This document shows, piece by piece, positions 294 through 19,465 of a stretch of 27,085 bases of DNA. A program made the translations under genes and the position numbers. The notes beneath the pieces are model-generated. The model saw only the letters and a program-made list of their open reading frames with translations. It had not been told where the DNA came from and searched no databases. The DNA comes from a virus: IMG/VR virus record IMGVR_UViG_3300022689_000174, positions 1 through 27,085 of that record, one strand, 5' to 3'. Positions within the stretch are counted from its first letter, which is position 1; each line of letters begins with the position of its first letter.

Positions 294-304
294 AACTGAT
301 TACA
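294..304 (-). promoter_or_regulatory. Leader element TGTAATCAGTT (copy a)
   Basis: Minus strand TGTAATCAGTT, placed between the predicted transcription start and the AGGAG of the gene ending at 280. It matches 11 contiguous bases of the 13-base element found before four other minus-strand genes. Confidence 0.6.
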
Positions 305-329
305 TCGTGGTCTATTTGACCATGCAATC

Positions 330-4266: not shown

Positions 4267-4540
4267 AAACCAGCGGCAACGCCAATTGGCAAGGCACTCC
4301 TGGCTTGCGTGGCGGCTGCCACGCAGGGTCAAATAGCTCATGCTGCACCATGCGCTGTAGCAGGCTCATGTATGATGATTGCGCTCGCACGATGCCGCTA
4401 AATACCTTCTTTTTATCACCGCGACAGACTACAAACTTACCGTTGCCCGTCCGTGATACGCGCAGATCGCGGTAGCCAGGGATGTAACGCACATCCCCAA
4501 CCACCATGCGCTTCAGATAAAAAAGTGGGGGTCTAATCAT
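4250..4540 (-). CDS. Hypothetical protein in replication operon
   Basis: This 96-residue basic protein begins MIRPPLFYLKRMVVGDV. The ATG at 4540 has GAGGT six bases upstream, and the start follows the stop of the preceding gene by eight bases, so the two are co-transcribed and probably coupled. Charged stretches (DKKKVF near residue 42) and aromatic residues are visible, but there is no cysteine cluster, membrane segment or recognisable catalytic motif. The C-terminus (about residues 73-96) is proline-rich and then hydrophobic (PRKPGVPCQLALPLVFAEAG). The family is unknown. Context suggests a small accessory factor for replication or recombination. Confidence 0.65.
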   Translation of the reverse strand: MIRPPLFYLKRMVVGDVRYIPGYRDLRVSRTGNGKFVVCRGDKKKVFSGIVRAQSSYMSLLQRMVQHELFDPAWQPPRKPGVPCQLALPLVFAEAG

Positions 4541-7234: not shown

Positions 7235-7245
7235 TGCTCCTCCTC

Positions 7246-7257
7246 ACTGATTACAAA
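7246..7257 (-). promoter_or_regulatory. Leader element TTTGTAATCAGT (copy b)
   Basis: Minus strand TTTGTAATCAGT directly abuts GAGGAGGAGC, the ribosome-binding site of the first replication-operon gene (ATG at 7234). It shares 12 bases with copies d, e and f. Confidence 0.7.
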
Positions 7258-7460
7258 TTAAGATAAATTACATCACACTGTTAAAATGTGGCGTTTTTGA
7301 TATACTGAAATCGGCGATATGCACAAAAACTGCATATCCTGATCTATAGGTAGCTGTCAGGGTATGGCTGCAAACTCCAAGTCTGACAGAAACCAGTCGT
7401 CCGGGCGTACAACCCATGTGCGCCCATTTATTGACTCTTCGGTTATATATCATTATACAA
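7258..7460 (-). promoter_or_regulatory. Leftward promoter candidate and structured leader
   Basis: Minus strand: TATAAT at 7452-7457 has no good -35 at 16-18 bases (GAGTAG is the closest), so it would need activation or be weak. From it a leader of about 215 bases leads to the ATG at 7234. It contains GGGCG/CGCCC, CTGTCAG/CTGACAG and an 8-bp hairpin GATATGCA/TGCATATC (about 7316-7338), followed by the TTTGTAATCAGT element. A 61-codon open frame crosses it but is not supported as a gene. Confidence 0.4.
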
Positions 7461-7765: not shown

Positions 7766-8008
7766 ATGCCACCCGTGAGGAGCAATTTTGATATGCTGCT
7801 AGCGCAGAAGGAAGTGCGCGACAGGCGGCGGTACACTCAACATGAGATAGCCGATGCTTGCGGCGTTTCTCAATCTATGGTATCTCGGATGAAAAGAAGC
7901 CACAACATTGAGTCTATCACGCTAAAGCACATCCGTAAATTTGCGGAATTTCTCAGCTGCGAAATTGGCGAATTGCTGTATATGTCCGAGTCAAATGAGA
8001 TACAATAA
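7766..8008 (+). CDS. Cro/CI-type (XRE family) repressor
   Basis: This 80-residue single-domain helix-turn-helix protein has the region YTQHEIADACGVSQSMVSRM (residues 24-43), a canonical XRE HTH, followed by ESITLKHIRKFAEFLSCEIGELL, the usual last helices of Cro/CI DNA-binding domains. There is no C-terminal dimerisation or protease domain, so it resembles Cro or a short CI-like repressor. The start is uncertain: ATG 7766 has AGGGAGA very close, and GTG 7775 has the same sequence at better spacing. It is the first gene of the rightward operon, facing the leftward replication operon across a long control region, the normal site of a lysogeny switch. It is a candidate for binding the inverted repeats upstream or the shared palindromes elsewhere. 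Confidence 0.85.
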   Translation: MPPVRSNFDMLLAQKEVRDRRRYTQHEIADACGVSQSMVSRMKRSHNIESITLKHIRKFAEFLSCEIGELLYMSESNEIQ

Positions 8009-8042: not shown

Positions 8043-8204
8043 ATGTCAAACGTATGGCGCAAGTACAAGGTGTATGTCCTGATCGTTATCCTGGTGATCG
8101 CGCTGGTTCTGGGTGCGCTGCTCCTACCTGGCTATTTTGATATTGTCCAGGGTGGGCAAGGTGCTGTCCAGGATGCTGCCGCAACGAATGCTGCTCGCCC
8201 ATGA
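8043..8204 (+). CDS. Small single-span membrane protein (53 aa)
   Basis: The short frame starts at ATG 8043 with AAAGG eight bases upstream and ends in TGA overlapping the next ATG (ATGA at 8201-8204), so coupling supports it. The product begins MSNVWRKYKVYVLIVILVIA. Residues 10-30 are a continuous hydrophobic span (VYVLIVILVIALVLGALLLPG) after a positively charged N-terminus (RKYK), so the N-terminus is likely inside. The remaining ~20 residues are polar and Gln/Ala-rich. One span and a position beside the repressor suggest a lysogeny-expressed membrane protein, for example superinfection exclusion. A holin would more usually sit with late genes. Function unproven. Confidence 0.7.
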   Translation: MSNVWRKYKVYVLIVILVIALVLGALLLPGYFDIVQGGQGAVQDAAATNAARP

Positions 8205-9199
8205 CCACACAGCAAGCGCGTGACCTCATCAAAGATGCCCTGGATTTGCTCAATACGGCGAATACGGCGCTGAATAAGGTATATGTAATCTGGCAGAAGC
8301 TAAAAGCGGAAAACGCGGCTGAAGTGCTGGGCTACGATGGCTTTGATGCGCTGTTCAAAGAGGAATTTCAGGACGCGGTGAATGTCAGCACATCGCACCT
8401 ATCGCGGATTCGCCACTACATCGAAACGGTGGATTTGATCGCAGAACACAGCGATTCCCCCGTGGGGGAAAATGATACACCGACTCCCCCACCGAGCGAA
8501 CGCAGCGTGCGCCCACTGTCTGCCGTCAAGTCGCCAGAGGCAAAAAGGCAAATCTGGCAGGACGCGACAGCAGCCGCCGGTGGGCAGAACCCGACAGGCA
8601 AGCAGACCGAAGCGGCGCGGGATCGCTGGCTAGTGCGTGAGCATGAGATACAGTGGGTCGCAACCTGGATGGACGACAAGCGCATGACACCCAGGCAGGC
8701 GATTAAGCTGCTGAAGGTGCTGGAAGGCTGCCATGCCACAACGCGGGCAGATATTGAGCGTTGGCAGATTACCGATACTGCGCTCGTCAACGAGTTAGAT
8801 CGCATTCGCACATCGCAGACATACGCTGAGATTAAAGCCAGCGGCGTGCTATATGTCGGAGACGATCAAACCCCCGTGAAGTTGCAGGATTTAACCACGC
8901 AGGACTTGCGCCAGGAATTGCGCCGCCGCAGCGCGATTTATCGCCAGGGTGCGCTATCGCACGCGGCACCCCAATCACTCATCGTATATCCGGCGGACAC
9001 CGCCGCCACCTACCGGGCACTTAGCGCGGTGCTAAGTGCGGAGCAACTTAGCCAACTCGCAAATTACATATACACACAAGGGAATCAGTTATGGCAACAA
9101 CAATCACAGTCACCAACCGCAAAGGTGGCACAGGCAAAACCACACACGCAACGCACCTCGCCGCCGGTCTCGCGCTTCGGGGTCATCGCGTCGGGTTGA
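8201..9199 (+). CDS. DNA-binding/partition-associated protein (ParB-like helical region)
   Basis: The protein has 332 residues. Its N-terminus (1-90) is helical with YDGFDALFKEEFQDAVNVSTSHLSRIRHYIE. The segment SERSVRPLSAVKSPEAKRQIWQDA (about 99-122), followed by NPTGKQTEAAR, closely resembles the conserved RPL-x(n)-W-x(n)-PT region seen in phage and plasmid DNA-binding proteins related to ParB and methylation-associated proteins. The central region is basic and helical, and the C-terminus is Gln/Ser-rich. Its start overlaps the membrane-protein stop. Its last 109 bases overlap the start of parA in another frame, which is unusually long and would add a ~36-residue tail read across the ParA P-loop codons. 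A role in partition or autoregulation is inferred from position. Confidence 0.72.
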   Translation: MTTQQARDLIKDALDLLNTANTALNKVYVIWQKLKAENAAEVLGYDGFDALFKEEFQDAVNVSTSHLSRIRHYIETVDLIAEHSDSPVGENDTPTPPPSERSVRPLSAVKSPEAKRQIWQDATAAAGGQNPTGKQTEAARDRWLVREHEIQWVATWMDDKRMTPRQAIKLLKVLEGCHATTRADIERWQITDTALVNELDRIRTSQTYAEIKASGVLYVGDDQTPVKLQDLTTQDLRQELRRRSAIYRQGALSHAAPQSLIVYPADTAATYRALSAVLSAEQLSQLANYIYTQGNQLWQQQSQSPTAKVAQAKPHTQRTSPPVSRFGVIASG

Positions 9200-11627: not shown

Positions 11628-11656
11628 TGTATACTGCTTAGTATAGCGTATCACAA
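11628..11656 (-). promoter_or_regulatory. Promoter with palindromic operator (double-HTH regulator)
   Basis: Minus strand: -35 TTGTGA (11651-11656), 17 bases, -10 TATACA (11628-11633). The palindrome ATACTAAGCAGTAT (11631-11644) overlaps the -10 by three bases, the identical register to 330-358, 17081-17109 and 19256-19284. The leader to the ATG at 11610 would be very short. Confidence 0.72.
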
Positions 11657-14344: not shown

Positions 14345-14357
14345 AACCGATTACAAA
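14345..14357 (-). promoter_or_regulatory. Leader element TTTGTAATCGGTT (copy c)
   Basis: Minus strand TTTGTAATCGGTT differs at one position (A to G) from copies d and f. In an RNA duplex with the complementary plus-strand transcript the change would give a G-U pair rather than a mismatch. Confidence 0.6.
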
Positions 14358-14380
14358 TATGTTGTGGCTTGTCTCATCAG

Positions 14381-14427
14381 TACCCAGGTTGCCACCCTGG
14401 GTAGAGTAGGGGAGTGCCCCCTACTTT
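14381..14427. other. Two adjacent GC-rich hairpins downstream of the 14431 gene
   Basis: ACCCAGG/CCTGGGT (about 14381-14401) and AGTAGGGG/CCCCTACT (about 14406-14426) are strong inverted repeats in the 109-base gap between two minus-strand genes. Neither has a clear T-tract, so they may be factor-assisted terminators or mRNA processing/stability structures. Confidence 0.5.
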
Positions 14428-14430
14428 CGA

Positions 14431-15315
14431 CTATCGCGCCAGCAAGCGCACCTGCCGCGCCACTTCGCGCACAGCATCTTTCACATCAAACCCTGCATCC
14501 AATTGGACGTCGGCATTGTCGCCATCATCCAGTTGACCCACTGCAATCACAATGTCCGCCGCTTTTTCCTGCCGCGCCCAATGCACCGCGTAGCCGCCGC
14601 TGGCAGAGGGGTATGAGGTGTGATAGGTCACCTTAAACCGCCCGCGCATCTGGGCGCACAGGTCGCGGAAGGGCTTCGCGCCTGTTTCGTCGTATGCCTT
14701 TGCATACGCACCGCGAATGAAGTCCCACTTGTCCATAAACACATTGTACGCAGGGAGGTTCACAAACTCGCCCATCTCACCCAGGCGATAGACCAGCAGC
14801 GCGTCTTTGTAGGGCGCACGAGTTGAGCGACTGGGCTTAGCCCACCCCAGGCTCATACCCGCGTAATAATCCAGCCCGGCAGCTTCGCACGCCCAGGTGA
14901 GGGTAAGCGCAAGCTGCGCCACGCGGCTGATGTACGCATAGTTCCCATGTACCATGCGCCACTGCGCTGCCGCCATGATCGCAATTTTGGGCATGTCTGG
15001 CAACACGCGTCGTGACTGATACGCACGCAGTTCGTAGGGGTCTACGTGACCCTGCCGCAGCGCAACACCGACTTTGCGCCGCTTGCGCGGGTCAAGCCGC
15101 TGACCTGTGACCAGATCGCGCTCGACGCGCAGTTGCTCGCCCAGGTCTACGAATACGTCAGCCAGGAGTGCGGCACTGCGGTTCGCATCGCGCCGGATTT
15201 GCGGGTCCAACTCACGTATGCCAGGGCTGTGCTTGGCAAAGTCCTTGACGCTGATTTCCACGCCCATCACTTCTTGACCGTAGCGTTGATAAGGTTTCAT
15301 TTTCCAGGGGTTCAT
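14431..15315 (-). CDS. Possible VWA-like partner of the adjacent MoxR/CobS-type ATPase
   Basis: The protein has 294 residues. Alternating strand and helix blocks (PDMPKIAIMAAAQWRM, then SRVAQLALTLTWACEAAGLDY, then YKDALLVYRLGEMGEFVNLP, and near the end DIVIAVGQLDDGDN) follow the order expected of a von Willebrand factor A fold. The first strand lacks the DxSxS metal site, so it would be a degenerate VWA domain. The main support is position: it is the next gene after a MoxR/CobS-type AAA+ ATPase, and MoxR proteins usually pair with VWA proteins to remodel a target complex. GGAGCAACT precedes the ATG at 15315. I am not certain of the family, and it may instead be an unrelated alpha/beta protein. 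Confidence 0.55.
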   Translation of the reverse strand: MNPWKMKPYQRYGQEVMGVEISVKDFAKHSPGIRELDPQIRRDANRSAALLADVFVDLGEQLRVERDLVTGQRLDPRKRRKVGVALRQGHVDPYELRAYQSRRVLPDMPKIAIMAAAQWRMVHGNYAYISRVAQLALTLTWACEAAGLDYYAGMSLGWAKPSRSTRAPYKDALLVYRLGEMGEFVNLPAYNVFMDKWDFIRGAYAKAYDETGAKPFRDLCAQMRGRFKVTYHTSYPSASGGYAVHWARQEKAADIVIAVGQLDDGDNADVQLDAGFDVKDAVREVARQVRLLAR

Positions 15316-15388: not shown

Positions 15389-16672
15389 CTACTGCAAAAA
15401 TTCGTGATATTTCGCGTCTACCTTGCCCAAAAATTCCAGGCGCACAGTTTGGTCAAAGCTCCATCCGAAGGTGTCTAACGCCTGCGCCATGTTGAGCATT
15501 GTGCGCGGCGAGATAATGACATCCAGCCCTTCGCGTTCAATGGTCTGGCGCATTTTAGTTGCCCACTCTTGTACGCGCTTGGCAGTAAATTTCTTGATGC
15601 CGCGCTTCACCAGAATCTCAACCTCATTCTCATACCCCGTCTGGATCATTGTCAGCCTGTCGCGGCTGGCTGCGTCCAAACGATTTCGGCTGTTGTACTG
15701 GCGGCTGCCGCCGTCACCTGTGGTATTCATGCACATGACAATGGGGCACTTCCCGGCAGGGTAGACCTTGCCTTCCGGCGTGTTGACATACCGCGCTTTG
15801 CCGTCTGGACCCGCATCTTGCAGCGCATTTTGCAGAGACATCATAACGCGGGGGTCTAGCGCGTCCGCCTCGTCCAACACAACCGCTTTGCCCTCGCGGA
15901 ACGCCTGGGTGACCACGCCGTCTTTCCATTGTTCGCCGTCTTTGGTCAAAATCAGACCGCCGACCAGATCAAGAACCTCTGTGCGGTCTGTGCAAGATAG
16001 GCTTACATATTCAAAGCCCTGCGCGTTGAGGGCGATTTCCGATGTTGTGGTTTTGCCGTTTCCGGCGGGTCCTACAATCGCCACAGCGGGGCGAAATTGG
16101 ATGTAGGTATTGACCACGTTCCACCAGGACGGCGGGGTGAACCACTCTGGCAGATCATTGACCGTCTCAAACAGTTTCGGTACGACCTTTGCCTGCGGCT
16201 TTTTGGTAAATGGGTCTTCCTTTACCTTTTCCTCGGATTCCTGAGATTCGCCTGCCTGCTCGCCGTCTTCCTGATCCTCACGCAGCTCTTCGCCAGTCTG
16301 GTCTTCAGTGGACGTATCCTCTTTCTGCGTGACACTTTTTTGAAACTGCTTCGGCTTGGCAGGATTGTAGTAGTCTGTCACAATTTCTTTAGCCGACATC
16401 GGCAGTGCTTCGCCGATATACAACCAGAACTTGCACTCTTTTGACAGGTTCTGCCAGTCCAATTTGTCAGCGGCTAATACCTGCCGCTTCCAGTAGGTAT
16501 CGCCGACAATAATCCAGAAGCCGTCGCCCTGGGCAGCTACCACTTTGTCAGCTTTGGCAATTTCAAACCGATTGCCATATTCTTCAGTGACATTTGCAAA
16601 CAGGTCGCCCGCTTTTTCCATTAGAGTTTGCTTCTGTTTGATTGCTTCGATCATACTCATCTGCATCACCAT
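15389..16672 (-). CDS. MoxR/CobS-type AAA+ ATPase
   Basis: The protein has 427 residues. The ATPase core starts near residue 195: Walker A GPAGNGKT (201-208), Walker B AVVLDEADAL (263-272), then a sensor-1 region PIVMCMNTTGDGG (about 307-319) and the RLDAASRDRL segment typical of MoxR and CobS proteins. The first ~100 residues form an unassigned domain, joined by a very acidic linker (about 115-155). Phage CobS-like ATPases are known, but their targets are poorly understood. Several ATGs lie close together at the start, and the first (16672) is kept, with AAGG upstream. The leader element copy d lies 18 bases before it. The following gene may encode its VWA-like partner. Confidence 0.85.
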   Translation of the reverse strand: MVMQMSMIEAIKQKQTLMEKAGDLFANVTEEYGNRFEIAKADKVVAAQGDGFWIIVGDTYWKRQVLAADKLDWQNLSKECKFWLYIGEALPMSAKEIVTDYYNPAKPKQFQKSVTQKEDTSTEDQTGEELREDQEDGEQAGESQESEEKVKEDPFTKKPQAKVVPKLFETVNDLPEWFTPPSWWNVVNTYIQFRPAVAIVGPAGNGKTTTSEIALNAQGFEYVSLSCTDRTEVLDLVGGLILTKDGEQWKDGVVTQAFREGKAVVLDEADALDPRVMMSLQNALQDAGPDGKARYVNTPEGKVYPAGKCPIVMCMNTTGDGGSRQYNSRNRLDAASRDRLTMIQTGYENEVEILVKRGIKKFTAKRVQEWATKMRQTIEREGLDVIISPRTMLNMAQALDTFGWSFDQTVRLEFLGKVDAKYHEFLQ

Positions 16673-16689
16673 CTCGCTCGCCTTACTGT

Positions 16690-16702
16690 AACTGATTACA
16701 AA
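16690..16702 (-). promoter_or_regulatory. Leader element TTTGTAATCAGTT (copy d)
   Basis: Exact 13-base element upstream of the AAA+ ATPase start. It is followed (in the plus direction) by a block almost identical to that at 18909-18982. Confidence 0.72.
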
Positions 16703-16722
16703 GATTTACCGTTGCCCCCAAA

Positions 16723-16741
16723 AGCCCGGCATAGCCGGGCT
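16723..16741 (-). terminator. Hairpin, copy 2 of the terminator-like repeat
   Basis: Minus strand AGCCCGGC-TAT-GCCGGGCT followed by TTT and GGGG. It sits 22 bases beyond the stop of the 16764 gene. With the promoter at 17081-17109 it brackets a single-gene cassette. Confidence 0.6.
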
Positions 16742-16763
16742 AGGGGTTAAGGGAATTTAGGTG

Positions 16764-17033
16764 CTAAAGGAAAAAAACAGGCGTGTGGTAAGGCATTGGT
16801 TCTGGGTTGCAGGGTGCGCTACCTCGCATAAATCCAACCTGAACCATATCACCGTCTACCCAAATTTTGTGAATAAGATGAAAGCCAACGTTGTAATCAT
16901 CTGATTCGTTGCCGCCTTCTGGGATGAAAATCCATACATGGACATCCTGTAGGGCATCGTCCACACTGCTGTTTTCTGCTAAAGCCTTTTCTCCCAACAT
17001 CTCCACTAGCTGAATTGCTGTTTTACGTTCCAT
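16764..17033 (-). CDS. Small hypothetical protein, paralogue A (cassette gene)
   Basis: The protein has 89 residues and starts at an ATG at 17033 behind AGGAGC. The C-terminal 40 residues align with the product of 18983-19204: shared positions include GF, I, W, DGD, V, GFMR, P, HTP and a final hydrophobic pair (here KIWVDGDMVQVGFMRGS and PYHTPVFFL). The N-terminal 40 residues are unrelated between the two. The conserved pattern looks like a small beta-rich domain, not membrane-spanning. The gene has its own operator-bearing promoter and terminator-like hairpin, the layout of a phage moron. The coding sequence ends in a run of seven A on the plus strand. Function unknown. Confidence 0.78.
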   Translation of the reverse strand: MERKTAIQLVEMLGEKALAENSSVDDALQDVHVWIFIPEGGNESDDYNVGFHLIHKIWVDGDMVQVGFMRGSAPCNPEPMPYHTPVFFL

Positions 17034-17080
17034 GCTGCTTGCTCCTAAATGACTGAGTAAATGTTGTTTAACTTGTATAT

Positions 17081-17109
17081 ATCATACTACATAGCATAGC
17101 ATAATGCAA
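17081..17109 (-). promoter_or_regulatory. Promoter with palindromic operator, cassette A
   Basis: Minus strand: -35 TTGCAT (17104-17109), 17 bases, -10 TATGAT (17081-17086). The palindrome ATGCTATGTAGTAT (17084-17097) overlaps the -10 by three bases. The surrounding 73 bases (17064-17136) match 19239-19311 at 70 positions. Confidence 0.78.
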
Positions 17110-17132
17110 GGATTTTAGATAAAAAAAGTGTT

Positions 17133-17158
17133 AAAAAGCAGGGGCATATATAGCCCCT
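17133..17158 (-). terminator. Intrinsic terminator after the DUF488 gene
   Basis: Minus strand AGGGGC-TATATAT-GCCCCT followed by GCTTTTT. It lies just beyond the stop of the DUF488-type gene and upstream of the cassette A promoter. Confidence 0.75.
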
Positions 17159-17166
17159 ACAAGTGC

Positions 17167-17610
17167 TTACCACAGGGTCATTTGCGTTGCATCGCCGCGA
17201 ATCTGCCGGGCGATTGCCTCCACATCGCTGCCCGTCCAGTGGGTAGGGCAGGCGGCATGTTGGCGGCACAGCCAATCGCTGACGGTTGTGCGGTGGCATT
17301 TCCCATGACTGGCGCACATGCACATCAGCACTGCGCCGTCACGCCCTTTGAGCGCGTTTAGCAGCGCGGTATGCCCCTGGTCTATATTCTTGATCTTGAT
17401 CGGACCGCCGCGATAATTCAGGTTGCCCCAATCCTGGATGTGCGTGTAGTGGTCACCAAAGACCTCAGCCACATTTTTACCCGCCCACACCGGATTCCGG
17501 CTGCGCGGGCTAAGGCGCACGTCTATGAGTTGCAAGTTCCGACTTTTCACGACGGTTGCAAGATCGGCGATATGTTTGATTGCGCCGTATCCGACGGTAT
17601 AGAGTTCCAT
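17167..17610 (-). CDS. DUF488-family protein
   Basis: This 147-residue protein starts MELYTVGYGAIKHIADLATV. The TVGYG opening, LIDVRLSPRSRNPVW (33-47), the YTHIQDWGNL stretch (about 75-84) and the late LMCMCASHGKCHRTTV motif with CHR are the diagnostic segments of DUF488. The biochemical role of the family is not established, and the conserved Cys and His residues suggest a catalytic or metal site. AAAGGG precedes the ATG. Two 14-base direct repeats (TTGAATTTGACAAC) lie immediately upstream and could be an operator. The gene ends at a good intrinsic terminator, so it is probably monocistronic or the last gene after parB. Confidence 0.85.
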   Translation of the reverse strand: MELYTVGYGAIKHIADLATVVKSRNLQLIDVRLSPRSRNPVWAGKNVAEVFGDHYTHIQDWGNLNYRGGPIKIKNIDQGHTALLNALKGRDGAVLMCMCASHGKCHRTTVSDWLCRQHAACPTHWTGSDVEAIARQIRGDATQMTLW

Positions 17611-17624
17611 TGTTTTCCCTTTGA

Positions 17625-17655
17625 ATTTGACAACTTGAATTTGACAACAATCACA
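17625..17655. repeat. Tandem direct repeat upstream of the DUF488 gene
   Basis: TTGAATTTGACAAC occurs twice in direct succession with a one-base offset, about 15 bases upstream of the DUF488 start. Protein-binding or centromere-like iterons are possible. Only two copies are seen. Confidence 0.6.
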
Positions 17656-17684
17656 TTGTACTTTGTTAAAACCGCGTTAGGCAC

Positions 17685-17713
17685 TTGTCGCAATACAGGG
17701 CGCGTGCTATACT
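17685..17713 (+). promoter_or_regulatory. Extended -10 promoter driving a short plus-strand RNA
   Basis: -35 TTGTCG (17685-17690), 17 bases, -10 TATACT (17708-17713), with TG one base before the -10 (TGCTATACT), an extended -10. No open frame follows. The predicted start near 17720 coincides with AACTGATTACAAA. Confidence 0.6.
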
Positions 17714-17719
17714 GCCTTC

Positions 17720-17790
17720 AACTGATTACAAACTTGTGTGATTTACATCATGCGATGCGGAAGCCCCTTGCTCCAAAGGGGCTTCTTGCA
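17720..17790 (+). ncRNA. Putative small antisense RNA complementary to leader elements
   Basis: The predicted RNA of about 70 nt begins AACTGATTACAAACTTG, the exact complement of the TTTGTAATCAGTT element in minus-strand leaders (13 bases at copies d and f, 12 at b, 11 at a, and 13 with one G-U at c). A central unstructured part follows, then a 10-bp hairpin GAAGCCCCTT/AAGGGGCTTC (17760-17785) with loop GCTCCA and a TTGCATT tail. The loop is also complementary to the GGAGC ribosome-binding sites of several of these genes. Promoter, single-stranded 5' seed and terminal hairpin are the usual small-RNA layout. Alternatively this is a decayed copy of a gene leader on the minus strand, or the hairpin serves parB. 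Confidence 0.42.
17760..17785. terminator. Hairpin between parB and the putative small RNA
   Basis: 10-bp stem GAAGCCCCTT/AAGGGGCTTC with loop GCTCCA. On the plus strand it is followed by TTGCATT, on the minus strand by CGCATC, so the plus direction is slightly favoured. It lies 11 bases from the parB stop and may serve both. Confidence 0.6.
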
Positions 17791-17796
17791 TTCTAG

Positions 17797-18897
17797 CTAA
17801 GACTTGCTAATTTTCTCCTCATGCGCTTCTTCGCGCAATGTTTTGCACCCAGGCTGCGGCGGGAAGTACGGCTCAGCGGGTAAGGTAGACCAGTTGTGGC
17901 ATACCAGCGTGCGATACAAATTTCCGATTGCAGCCGCTTCGCGCTCTAGCCCCTGTGATTGCAGGTCAAACATGTAGCGTTCAAAGATGTCGCCTGCACC
18001 GTCCGTCGCCTTAAAGCGCACTGGCGGTAGATCGGTGTCCATTGGCGCGGATGTGACCGCTTCCTTTCCAGATCGCACAGCGATGAACTCCACGCTCTGC
18101 ATTTGCAGTACCAGCTCGTCCATGTCAAACATTGTCTGCTGCCGCTGCTTTTCCAGCAATTCATTACAAATGCCCTGGAACTGGGTCTTTTTCATCCCAT
18201 CTTTGTATGCCTGTAGCGCGACACGCTGGAAATTCGGCTCCAGGTCTACCATCGCCTGCGCGTGACCAATAGGGAAGTTATTATGCCGCAATAGATGCTG
18301 CGCTTCTTCCACCAACGATAGCAGTTCGACGCGCCGCTTGACCAAATCCGGGTTACGCCCGGCTACCTCGCCAATCTTCCGGGCATCCCAACCCAACTCG
18401 TCCATGCGCTTTTTGTACGCCAGCGCCTCTTCAATGACATTCAAATCCTCGCGGCTGGTGTTCTCCGCAAGCATGATCGCTGAGGCGGTGATGTCGTCCA
18501 GGTCGCGGACAATCGCAGGGATTTCCGTCCATTCCAGGATGTCACGCATGGCGCGGGTACGCCGCTCGCCCGCAACGATCTCATAAAATGCCTGTGCGCT
18601 TTGCAGGTCTGAGCCGCTTACTTCTACCGCCAGACCATTCAAAGTGAATGTGACTGTCCGGTTCTCACTGATCGCCCGACCGCTATCCAGCCGGTTCCAG
18701 ATGTCATGCGTGGCTTTGTCTGCCACTGCGTAGCGCGTGTCGCCAATCTGGACGATGGGGCGTAGGGTAGGTGGCTGCGCCAGACCATTTTCTGCGATGC
18801 TCTCCGCCAACTCGCGCAATTTGCGCTCTTTGAATGCCTCGCGGTCATTGATTCCTGGCACAACTTTGTGGATAGGGACTTGCGTAATTTCACTCAT
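17797..18897 (-). CDS. parB: ParB-family partition/DNA-binding protein
   Basis: The protein has 366 residues. The N-terminal ParB/Srx domain begins VPIHKVVPGINDREAFKERK and the conserved box is VAGERRTRAMRDI (108-120), followed by AENTSREDLNVIEEALAYKK and the central HTH (GEVAGRNPDLVKRRVELLSL), all diagnostic for ParB/Spo0J. An unusual insertion of roughly 55 residues (about 48-105) separates the opening of the domain from the GERR box. The ATG at 18897 is chosen because GGAGC lies at proper spacing. A TTG further upstream is in frame but would remove the ribosome-binding site. It lies 8 kb from parA on the other strand, an unlinked arrangement. The leader element copy f abuts its ribosome-binding site. 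Confidence 0.92.
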   Translation of the reverse strand: MSEITQVPIHKVVPGINDREAFKERKLRELAESIAENGLAQPPTLRPIVQIGDTRYAVADKATHDIWNRLDSGRAISENRTVTFTLNGLAVEVSGSDLQSAQAFYEIVAGERRTRAMRDILEWTEIPAIVRDLDDITASAIMLAENTSREDLNVIEEALAYKKRMDELGWDARKIGEVAGRNPDLVKRRVELLSLVEEAQHLLRHNNFPIGHAQAMVDLEPNFQRVALQAYKDGMKKTQFQGICNELLEKQRQQTMFDMDELVLQMQSVEFIAVRSGKEAVTSAPMDTDLPPVRFKATDGAGDIFERYMFDLQSQGLEREAAAIGNLYRTLVCHNWSTLPAEPYFPPQPGCKTLREEAHEEKISKS

Positions 18898-18908
18898 GCT
18901 TTGCTCCA

Positions 18909-18921
18909 AACTGATTACAAA
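18909..18921 (-). promoter_or_regulatory. Leader element TTTGTAATCAGTT (copy f)
   Basis: The exact 13-base element is followed immediately by TGGAGC, the parB ribosome-binding site, so anything bound here would block translation of ParB. Confidence 0.72.
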
Positions 18922-18940
18922 TTTACCGTTGCCCCCAAAA

Positions 18941-18960
18941 ACCCGGCATGTAGCCGGGCT
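18941..18960 (-). terminator. Hairpin, copy 3 of the terminator-like repeat
   Basis: Minus strand GCCCGGC-TACAT-GCCGGGT followed by TTTTTGGGG. It closes the second small-gene cassette, 22 bases beyond the 18983 stop. Confidence 0.62.
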
Positions 18961-18982
18961 GAGGGTTAAGGGGATTTAGGTA

Positions 18983-19204
18983 CTAAAAAAGATAGATAGG
19001 TGTGTGACCGGGCACTGGCATTGCAATACACTCGGTATCGCGCATAAACCCAATTACCACATCACCATCTTGCTCCCACGCATCCATAATGATGCGGAAA
19101 CCTTTTTCTATCCCTGTGTCAACATAAATCAATCCAAAAATTTGTGTTCCTTCTTCCACCATAGCAACATATTCTGTTGCCGAAATGTACATGTATTCGT
19201 TCAT
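18983..19204 (-). CDS. Small hypothetical protein, paralogue B (cassette gene)
   Basis: The protein has 73 residues and begins MNEYMYISATEYVAMVEEGT. The C-terminal half (GFRIIMDAWEQDGDVVIGFM, then PVPGHTPIYLF) matches paralogue A at GF, I, W, DGD, V, GFMR, P, HTP and the hydrophobic end, with the N-terminus differing in length and sequence. It is acidic and soluble in appearance. It sits first in the leftward accessory region under a promoter almost identical to that of paralogue A and ends at hairpin copy 3. An AGGAGC is seen nine bases before the start. Function unknown. The conserved GFMR-x(n)-HTP pattern would be a useful search seed. Confidence 0.78.
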   Translation of the reverse strand: MNEYMYISATEYVAMVEEGTQIFGLIYVDTGIEKGFRIIMDAWEQDGDVVIGFMRDTECIAMPVPGHTPIYLF

Positions 19205-19255
19205 TTTTGTAGCTCCTGTACTTGTGTGAATGTGTGTTTGTTTAACTTGTATACA

Positions 19256-19284
19256 TCATACTACATAGCATAGCATAATGCAAG
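19256..19284 (-). promoter_or_regulatory. Promoter with palindromic operator, cassette B
   Basis: Minus strand: -35 TTGCAT (19279-19284), 17 bases, -10 TATGAT (19256-19261). The operator ATGCTATGTAGTAT is at 19259-19272. It faces away from the late promoter at 19333-19361, forming a divergent early/late control region. Confidence 0.78.
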
Positions 19285-19332
19285 TGTTTTAGATAAAAAA
19301 AGTGTTAAAATAAAACGTCCGTTCTACTTTTC

Positions 19333-19361: not shown

Positions 19362-19371
19362 TGTTCTACAG

Positions 19372-19442
19372 GCGGGAGAGGTGCTGTGGTGGCACGGCGG
19401 TTATCCAAACCGTAGGCGCTGGTTCAAATCCAGCCTCCCGCT
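19372..19442 (+). tRNA. tRNA-Gly(UCC)-like gene with non-canonical positions
   Basis: A cloverleaf can be drawn: acceptor GCGGGAG/CTCCCGC, D-stem GTGC/GCAC with loop TGTGGTG, anticodon stem GCGGT/ACCGT with loop TATCCAA, a four-base variable region, T-stem GCTGG/CCAGC with the standard loop TTCAAAT, and discriminator U as in bacterial tRNA-Gly. The central triplet reads UCC. Oddities are A at position 33 instead of the near-invariant U, A8 with U14 instead of U8-A14, and G21 instead of A21. No CCA is encoded. It could be a divergent working tRNA, a degenerate copy, or a tRNA-like RNA element. Confidence 0.62.
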
Positions 19443-19465
19443 TTTTGCATTTGAGAGGGGATGAG

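Follow-up and report, generated by a model that had tools for sequence, protein, structure and literature searches.

A candidate small antisense RNA gene of a phage, predicted to act in trans on the leaders of partition and replication genes

Most of the phage antisense RNAs covered in a review have a single phage gene, or genes of the host, as their target (PMC12197685). The c4 RNA of P1 and P7, which occurs in plasmid-type prophages, is a phage antisense RNA that pairs around a phage ribosome-binding site and thereby blocks translation, and the sar RNA of P22 and the OOP RNA of lambda are short RNAs whose pairing reduces the expression of phage genes (PMC12197685). VpdS of phage VP882, which acts on phage and host mRNAs, and PreS of lambda are phage trans-acting RNAs linked to replication (PMC12197685). 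Here, we describe a locus with likenesses to these RNAs in a phage whose host appears to be an uncultured bacterium, as its relatives point to Anaerolineae, Chloroflexota. The window that we analysed is the whole IMG/VR virus record IMGVR_UViG_3300022689_000174, 27,085 bases in length. With a probability of roughly 0.6, we propose that positions 17720 to about 17790 (+) encode a short phage antisense RNA that acts in trans and would repress translation via its 5' seed.

The predicted gene is preceded by a sigma-70-type promoter at 17685..17713 (+), composed of TTGTCG (17685-17690), a 17-nt spacer and TATACT (17708-17713), with an extended -10 motif TGC. By a simple score this promoter is the joint best among the sigma-70-like sites on both strands of the window, six sites reaching that score. 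Its predicted +1 is 17720, the first base of AACTGATTACAAA, which begins 7 nt past the -10 hexamer, and an equally good promoter would by chance have its +1 no more than 1 nt from 17720 on the + strand with a probability of about 3e-4. The predicted RNA (17720..17790 (+), about 70 nt with an inferred 3' end) starts with the seed AACUGAUUACAAA (AACTGATTACAAA as DNA; 17720..17732 (+)), which is complementary to the leader element described below. It continues into a second pairing region (RNA nt 14-36, 17733..17755 (+)), which complements extra blocks in the leaders of parA, the MoxR-like gene and gene 7234. It ends with the hairpin GAAGCCCCUU-GCUCCA-AAGGGGCUUC (17760..17785 (+)), a probable terminator followed by a weak U-tract, TTGCATTCT. 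This hairpin is among the three most stable 28-nt hairpins of the window; a terminator scan of the window did not list it. The RNA from 17720 to 17796 folds with -30.7 kcal/mol (z = -5.8 versus shuffled sequences), leaving its first 16 nt unpaired. The sequence-only reading had delimited the RNA by an extended -10 promoter and a terminal hairpin, and both are present by sequence and top-scoring in the window, with the reservation of the weak U-tract. Its statement that the locus holds no open frame is literally wrong, as an ORF (17371-17796 (+)) spans it, but this ORF opens well before the promoter and runs antisense to the DUF488 gene. Comparison of 17600-17900 with Rfam covariance models, which takes in c4-type antisense RNAs to the extent that Rfam contains them, gave no match near threshold, the best score being that of sroD on the opposite strand (14.3 bits, cut-off 50).

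parB ends at 17797 and the DUF488 gene starts at 17610, and the gap of 186 nt that separates them contains promoter, seed and hairpin. One could object that promoter and hairpin are consensus matches only, that the hairpin could also terminate parB, and that an unimportant repeated leader word merely happens to recur between a promoter-like sequence and a parB-terminator hairpin. In line with that, outside leaders the 8-mer core is seen singly about as often as chance predicts (3 sites, 2.9 expected). Nevertheless, that one gap of this size should contain an exact 13-nt complement, its alignment with a +1 and one of the three most stable hairpins has a very small joint probability, and we regard coincidence as most improbable.

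The complement of the seed is found in sense orientation in the leaders of five genes (280, 7234, 14321, 16672 and 18897), matching at 11-13 of 13 nt. These five elements span 11-36 nt, and their 3' ends 10-23 nt, ahead of the start codons. A sequence scan confirmed the positions given for them in the sequence-only reading, which had spoken of the exact complement of an element repeated before five genes, with one variant copy; exactness holds for two of the five leaders (16690 and 18909), whereas the other three carry one or two changes. The exact copies of TTTGTAATCAGTT lie at 18909..18921 (-), adjoining the ribosome-binding site of parB (start 18897), and at 16690..16702 (-), before the gene for a MoxR-like AAA+ ATPase (start 16672). 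The copy at 14345..14357 (-), in the leader of the 14321 gene and the DUF3560-methyltransferase operon, differs by one change, A to G, which, as had been pointed out earlier, would keep pairing through G-U. In the leader of gene 7234, the first gene of the replication operon, the element (7245..7257 (-)) has its last T changed to G. The gene 280 element, GATGTAATCAGTT (294..306 (-)), carries two changes, and in this leader CACGATGTAATCAGTT (294..309 (-)) pairs over 16 nt, leaving 3 nt of the RNA bulged out. A scan of the window for the 13-mer with up to three mismatches returned 11 matches, while 4.8 were expected. In predicted folds, the elements show no special tendency to be unpaired. According to Pfam, 18897 encodes ParB_N/HTH_ParB, 16672 an AAA_5 MoxR-like protein and 9091 ParA; DUF3560 and a methyltransferase lie downstream of 14321, and AAA_24, replication protein O, DnaC-like IstB and DnaB lie downstream of 7234. 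The hairpin loop GCTCCA had also been proposed to pair with GGAGC ribosome-binding sites. This complementarity is real but unspecific, as GGAGCAA is the ribosome-binding site in leaders without the element as well (15315, 17033), and we rejected the loop as a specific determinant.

Two of the five leader copies derive from a single duplication and are thus not independent of each other: a module consisting of a promoter, a small gene, a hairpin and a leader is present at 16672-17140 (-) and again at 18897-19314 (-). In a global alignment of the duplicates, the coding parts are 51%, the leader blocks 90% and the elements, which have one ambiguous gap, 93% identical, and a 73-nt piece over the duplicated promoters is 96% identical. 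Because leader and element were conserved while the coding part fell to 51%, the element has probably been retained since the duplication, by an agent that this retention does not specify. The same conservation next to diverged coding sequence, and the location of the element in 5' leaders near ribosome-binding sites, would also suit a translation enhancer or a site at which an RNA-binding protein recognises the leader RNA, with the complementary locus being a titrating or a coincidental transcript. We find this reading quite unlikely, as it explains neither why the exact complement should begin where a strong promoter starts transcription, ahead of a terminal hairpin, nor the extra complementary blocks in several leaders. 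A tRNA-Gly (TCC) gene was observed at 19371-19443 (+), just before the methylase/GNAT gene, and a 25-nt stretch inside an ORF (4423-4448 (-)) is 88% identical to the parB leader (GGGCAACGGTAAGTTTGTAGTCTGT).

Ranking of 31 leaders by their pairing with RNA nt 1-20 placed the five known leaders and that of parA at ranks 1-6, with energies of -14.8 to -18.0 kcal/mol versus -10.0 for the next leader. Thus parA, which was absent from the earlier list, is a probable sixth target by sequence. Its bipartite site, CACACAAG-GG-AATCAGTT (9073..9090 (+)), stands directly before the ATG (9091) and complements RNA nt 1-8 and 14-21; the match to nt 14-21 falls outside the shared word, and parA is on the opposite strand from the other targets. 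All six elements are in sense orientation, their strand following that of the gene, and their 3' ends lie 0-23 nt ahead of the start codon. Second blocks were also present in the 16672 leader, where GTAAATC (16703..16709 (-)) complements RNA nt 21-27, and in the 7234 leader, where TGATGTAA (7268..7275 (-)) complements RNA nt 24-31 at an equal 10-nt spacing. Bipartite sites were thus observed three times (parA, 16672 and 7234), in leaders in all three cases, as compared with 0.05 per shuffled window. The summed flank pairing was significant when the RNA region was shuffled (P = 0.0035) and when the flanks were shuffled (<1/2000). The parA site was chosen for its strong pairing and lies inside an overlapping ORF (8201-9199), near the 3' end of its coding sequence; without the parA site, the extension signal drops to P = 0.07 (RNA shuffled) and 0.01 (flanks shuffled), and without parA and 7234 it is gone (P = 0.14). 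Pairing energy alone is not specific, because several intragenic sites (20291+, 4423-, 2432+ and 5241-) pair with RNA nt 1-20 as strongly. Taken together, the RNA is partially complementary to the ribosome-binding regions of several mRNAs to a degree that exceeds chance, as is looked for in a phage trans-acting antisense RNA.

As three leaders match the RNA outside the 13-mer, we favour RNA–RNA pairing over an operator or promoter word shared at the DNA level. According to the latter explanation, the 13-mer upstream of several genes would be recognised by a protein, either of the phage or of its host, and the 17720 copy would be just another site, belonging to DUF488 on the minus strand or acting as an operator at the promoter +1. 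The five full copies and the 17720 copy indeed share one strand, each with a minus-strand gene downstream of it, and the second block of the 7234 leader is at the same spacing as at the 17720 locus, which a longer DNA motif would explain too. Additionally, one TerL relative of the phage (L066) has an exact 18-nt element, TATTTGCGGGAAAAGTTT, in a longer repeat before four genes (5441, 6332, 7812 and 8569 (+)). No antisense RNA is evident there; the repeat looks, probably, like a promoter element, and we rejected an analogous antisense system in that relative. However, the 17720 copy is 110 nt from the DUF488 start, compared with 11-36 nt for the other copies, and the parA and 16672 leaders match the locus outside the word at differing spacings. 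Moreover, the elements of gene 280 and at 14345 would be transcribed, as the former is downstream of the gene's own promoter (TATAAT at about 335) and the latter comes after a probable hammerhead ribozyme, within the transcript. A good -35 is missing beside the element in the 16672 and 18897 leaders. With no -35, and with genes 280 and 14321 carrying the element within the transcript, a role of the element as a promoter (-10) was set aside. The phage also has a separate palindromic operator-like word over its promoters. On balance, a DNA word, including a 17720 copy that is one more protein-binding site, seems unlikely to us.

The probable hammerhead in the 14321 leader (14362-14432 (-)) would be of type II, and its end lies 4 nt before the variant element. 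Its core is complete (CUGAUGA, GAAA, a UH cleavage site, here UC, and stems I-III), and its Hammerhead_II score of 35.2 bits is below the Rfam gathering value of 37, with an E of 9e-6 for a 271-base stretch. Its loop I, GUGGC, can pair with the tail GCCAC, a possible pseudoknot; a pseudoknot between loop I and the 3' tail has been described for type II hammerheads (PMC3088659). The palindromic word, ATACTAYRTAGTAT, occurs at 333-346, 11631-11644, 17084-17097 and 19258-19271, and a scan of both strands gave 9 matches versus 0.9 expected. It covers the promoters before gene 280 and both duplicated modules, leading into 16672 and 18897, and lies just upstream of gene 11610. It is a candidate site for the HTH protein encoded at 7766-8008. 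As it lies over promoters of the same genes that carry the leader element, transcriptional and RNA control may share targets.

No close relative of the phage was found among phages, plasmids, viral contigs and genomes; there were no near DNA matches in phages, and a search of phages and plasmids for DNA distantly similar to the RNA gave none. Single-protein scans for ParB and AAA_24 in viral contigs and for ParB in genome contigs yielded no relative, DNA pattern scans with the element and its flanks hit unrelated contigs, consistent with chance, and a DNA scan for the paralogous promoter word gave nothing. The TerL relatives (39-61%) have few other genes in common with the phage. In 396 genomes of the class of the Anaerolineae MAG L057, we found distant ParBs only, and in 396 of that class no copy of the small RNA, the latter being an empty result without a positive control, and a MoxR-like search of 400 genomes of the phylum gave nothing at 1e-30. 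The gene order DUF488-parB-methylase/GNAT-terS is found in phages or prophages at about 33-52% protein identity (L163, L165) and in pieces of the genome G383 (L156, L157 and L162); the parB region of L167 resembles that of L156. Inspection of the parB-DUF488 gap of the same-order relatives revealed no comparable promoter-seed-hairpin unit, and no copy of the element with at most one mismatch was present in them (L156 and L157 were scanned at three mismatches). The sequence-only reading had proposed to look for leader elements conserved in phages without the complementary locus; applied to these distant same-order relatives, this check showed both partners to be missing, which is compatible with the antisense model and neither refutes nor proves it.

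The coincidence of promoter +1, seed and hairpin, the six top-ranked leaders and the extra complementarity together support a small RNA whose 5' end pairs with leaders as the best fit, which we infer rather than present as a demonstrated mechanism. RNA polymerase would start at 17720 and stop at the hairpin. The unpaired 5' end, aided by nt 14-36, would then pair with six leaders, namely those of parA, parB, the MoxR-like ATPase gene, the 14321/methyltransferase operon, the replication operon (7234) and gene 280. The predicted duplex, 0-36 nt ahead of the start codon, would block 30S loading. As genes for the partition, replication and methylase functions carry a tag complementary to the 13 letters of the seed, a single RNA could turn down several operons, and these functions may be lowered together, for instance as a brake on a prophage or plasmid state. 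A further, tentative possibility, to which we give somewhat less than even odds, is that this single RNA serves as a post-transcriptional master brake of the phage's own replication and partition programme. It would address ParA, ParB and four more transcripts via a single leader tag that recurs, together with secondary contacts specific to each target, and the palindromic operator would be layered over several of the same promoters.

A small RNA that coordinates a set of the phage's operons, with both partition genes and the replication operon among them, would be an RNA-level counterpart of a repressor regulon, and the repeated leader tag makes the prediction directly testable in a surrogate host. 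For c4 RNA, a single phage target (ant) has been described, and its complementary segments are looped (PMC12197685), whereas here a free 5' end is predicted to reach about six leaders. While sar and OOP are described with one main target each (PMC12197685), the targets predicted here are up to 17 kb away and partially complementary. VpdS and PreS both bind Hfq, and PreS targets the host dnaN (PMC12197685); in contrast, the targets predicted for the 17720 RNA are the partition and replication genes of the phage itself, reached via one repeated leader element. Judged from its sequence, the 17720 RNA would work like c4, sar or OOP, and what would be new is a multi-operon regulon on the phage's own genome.
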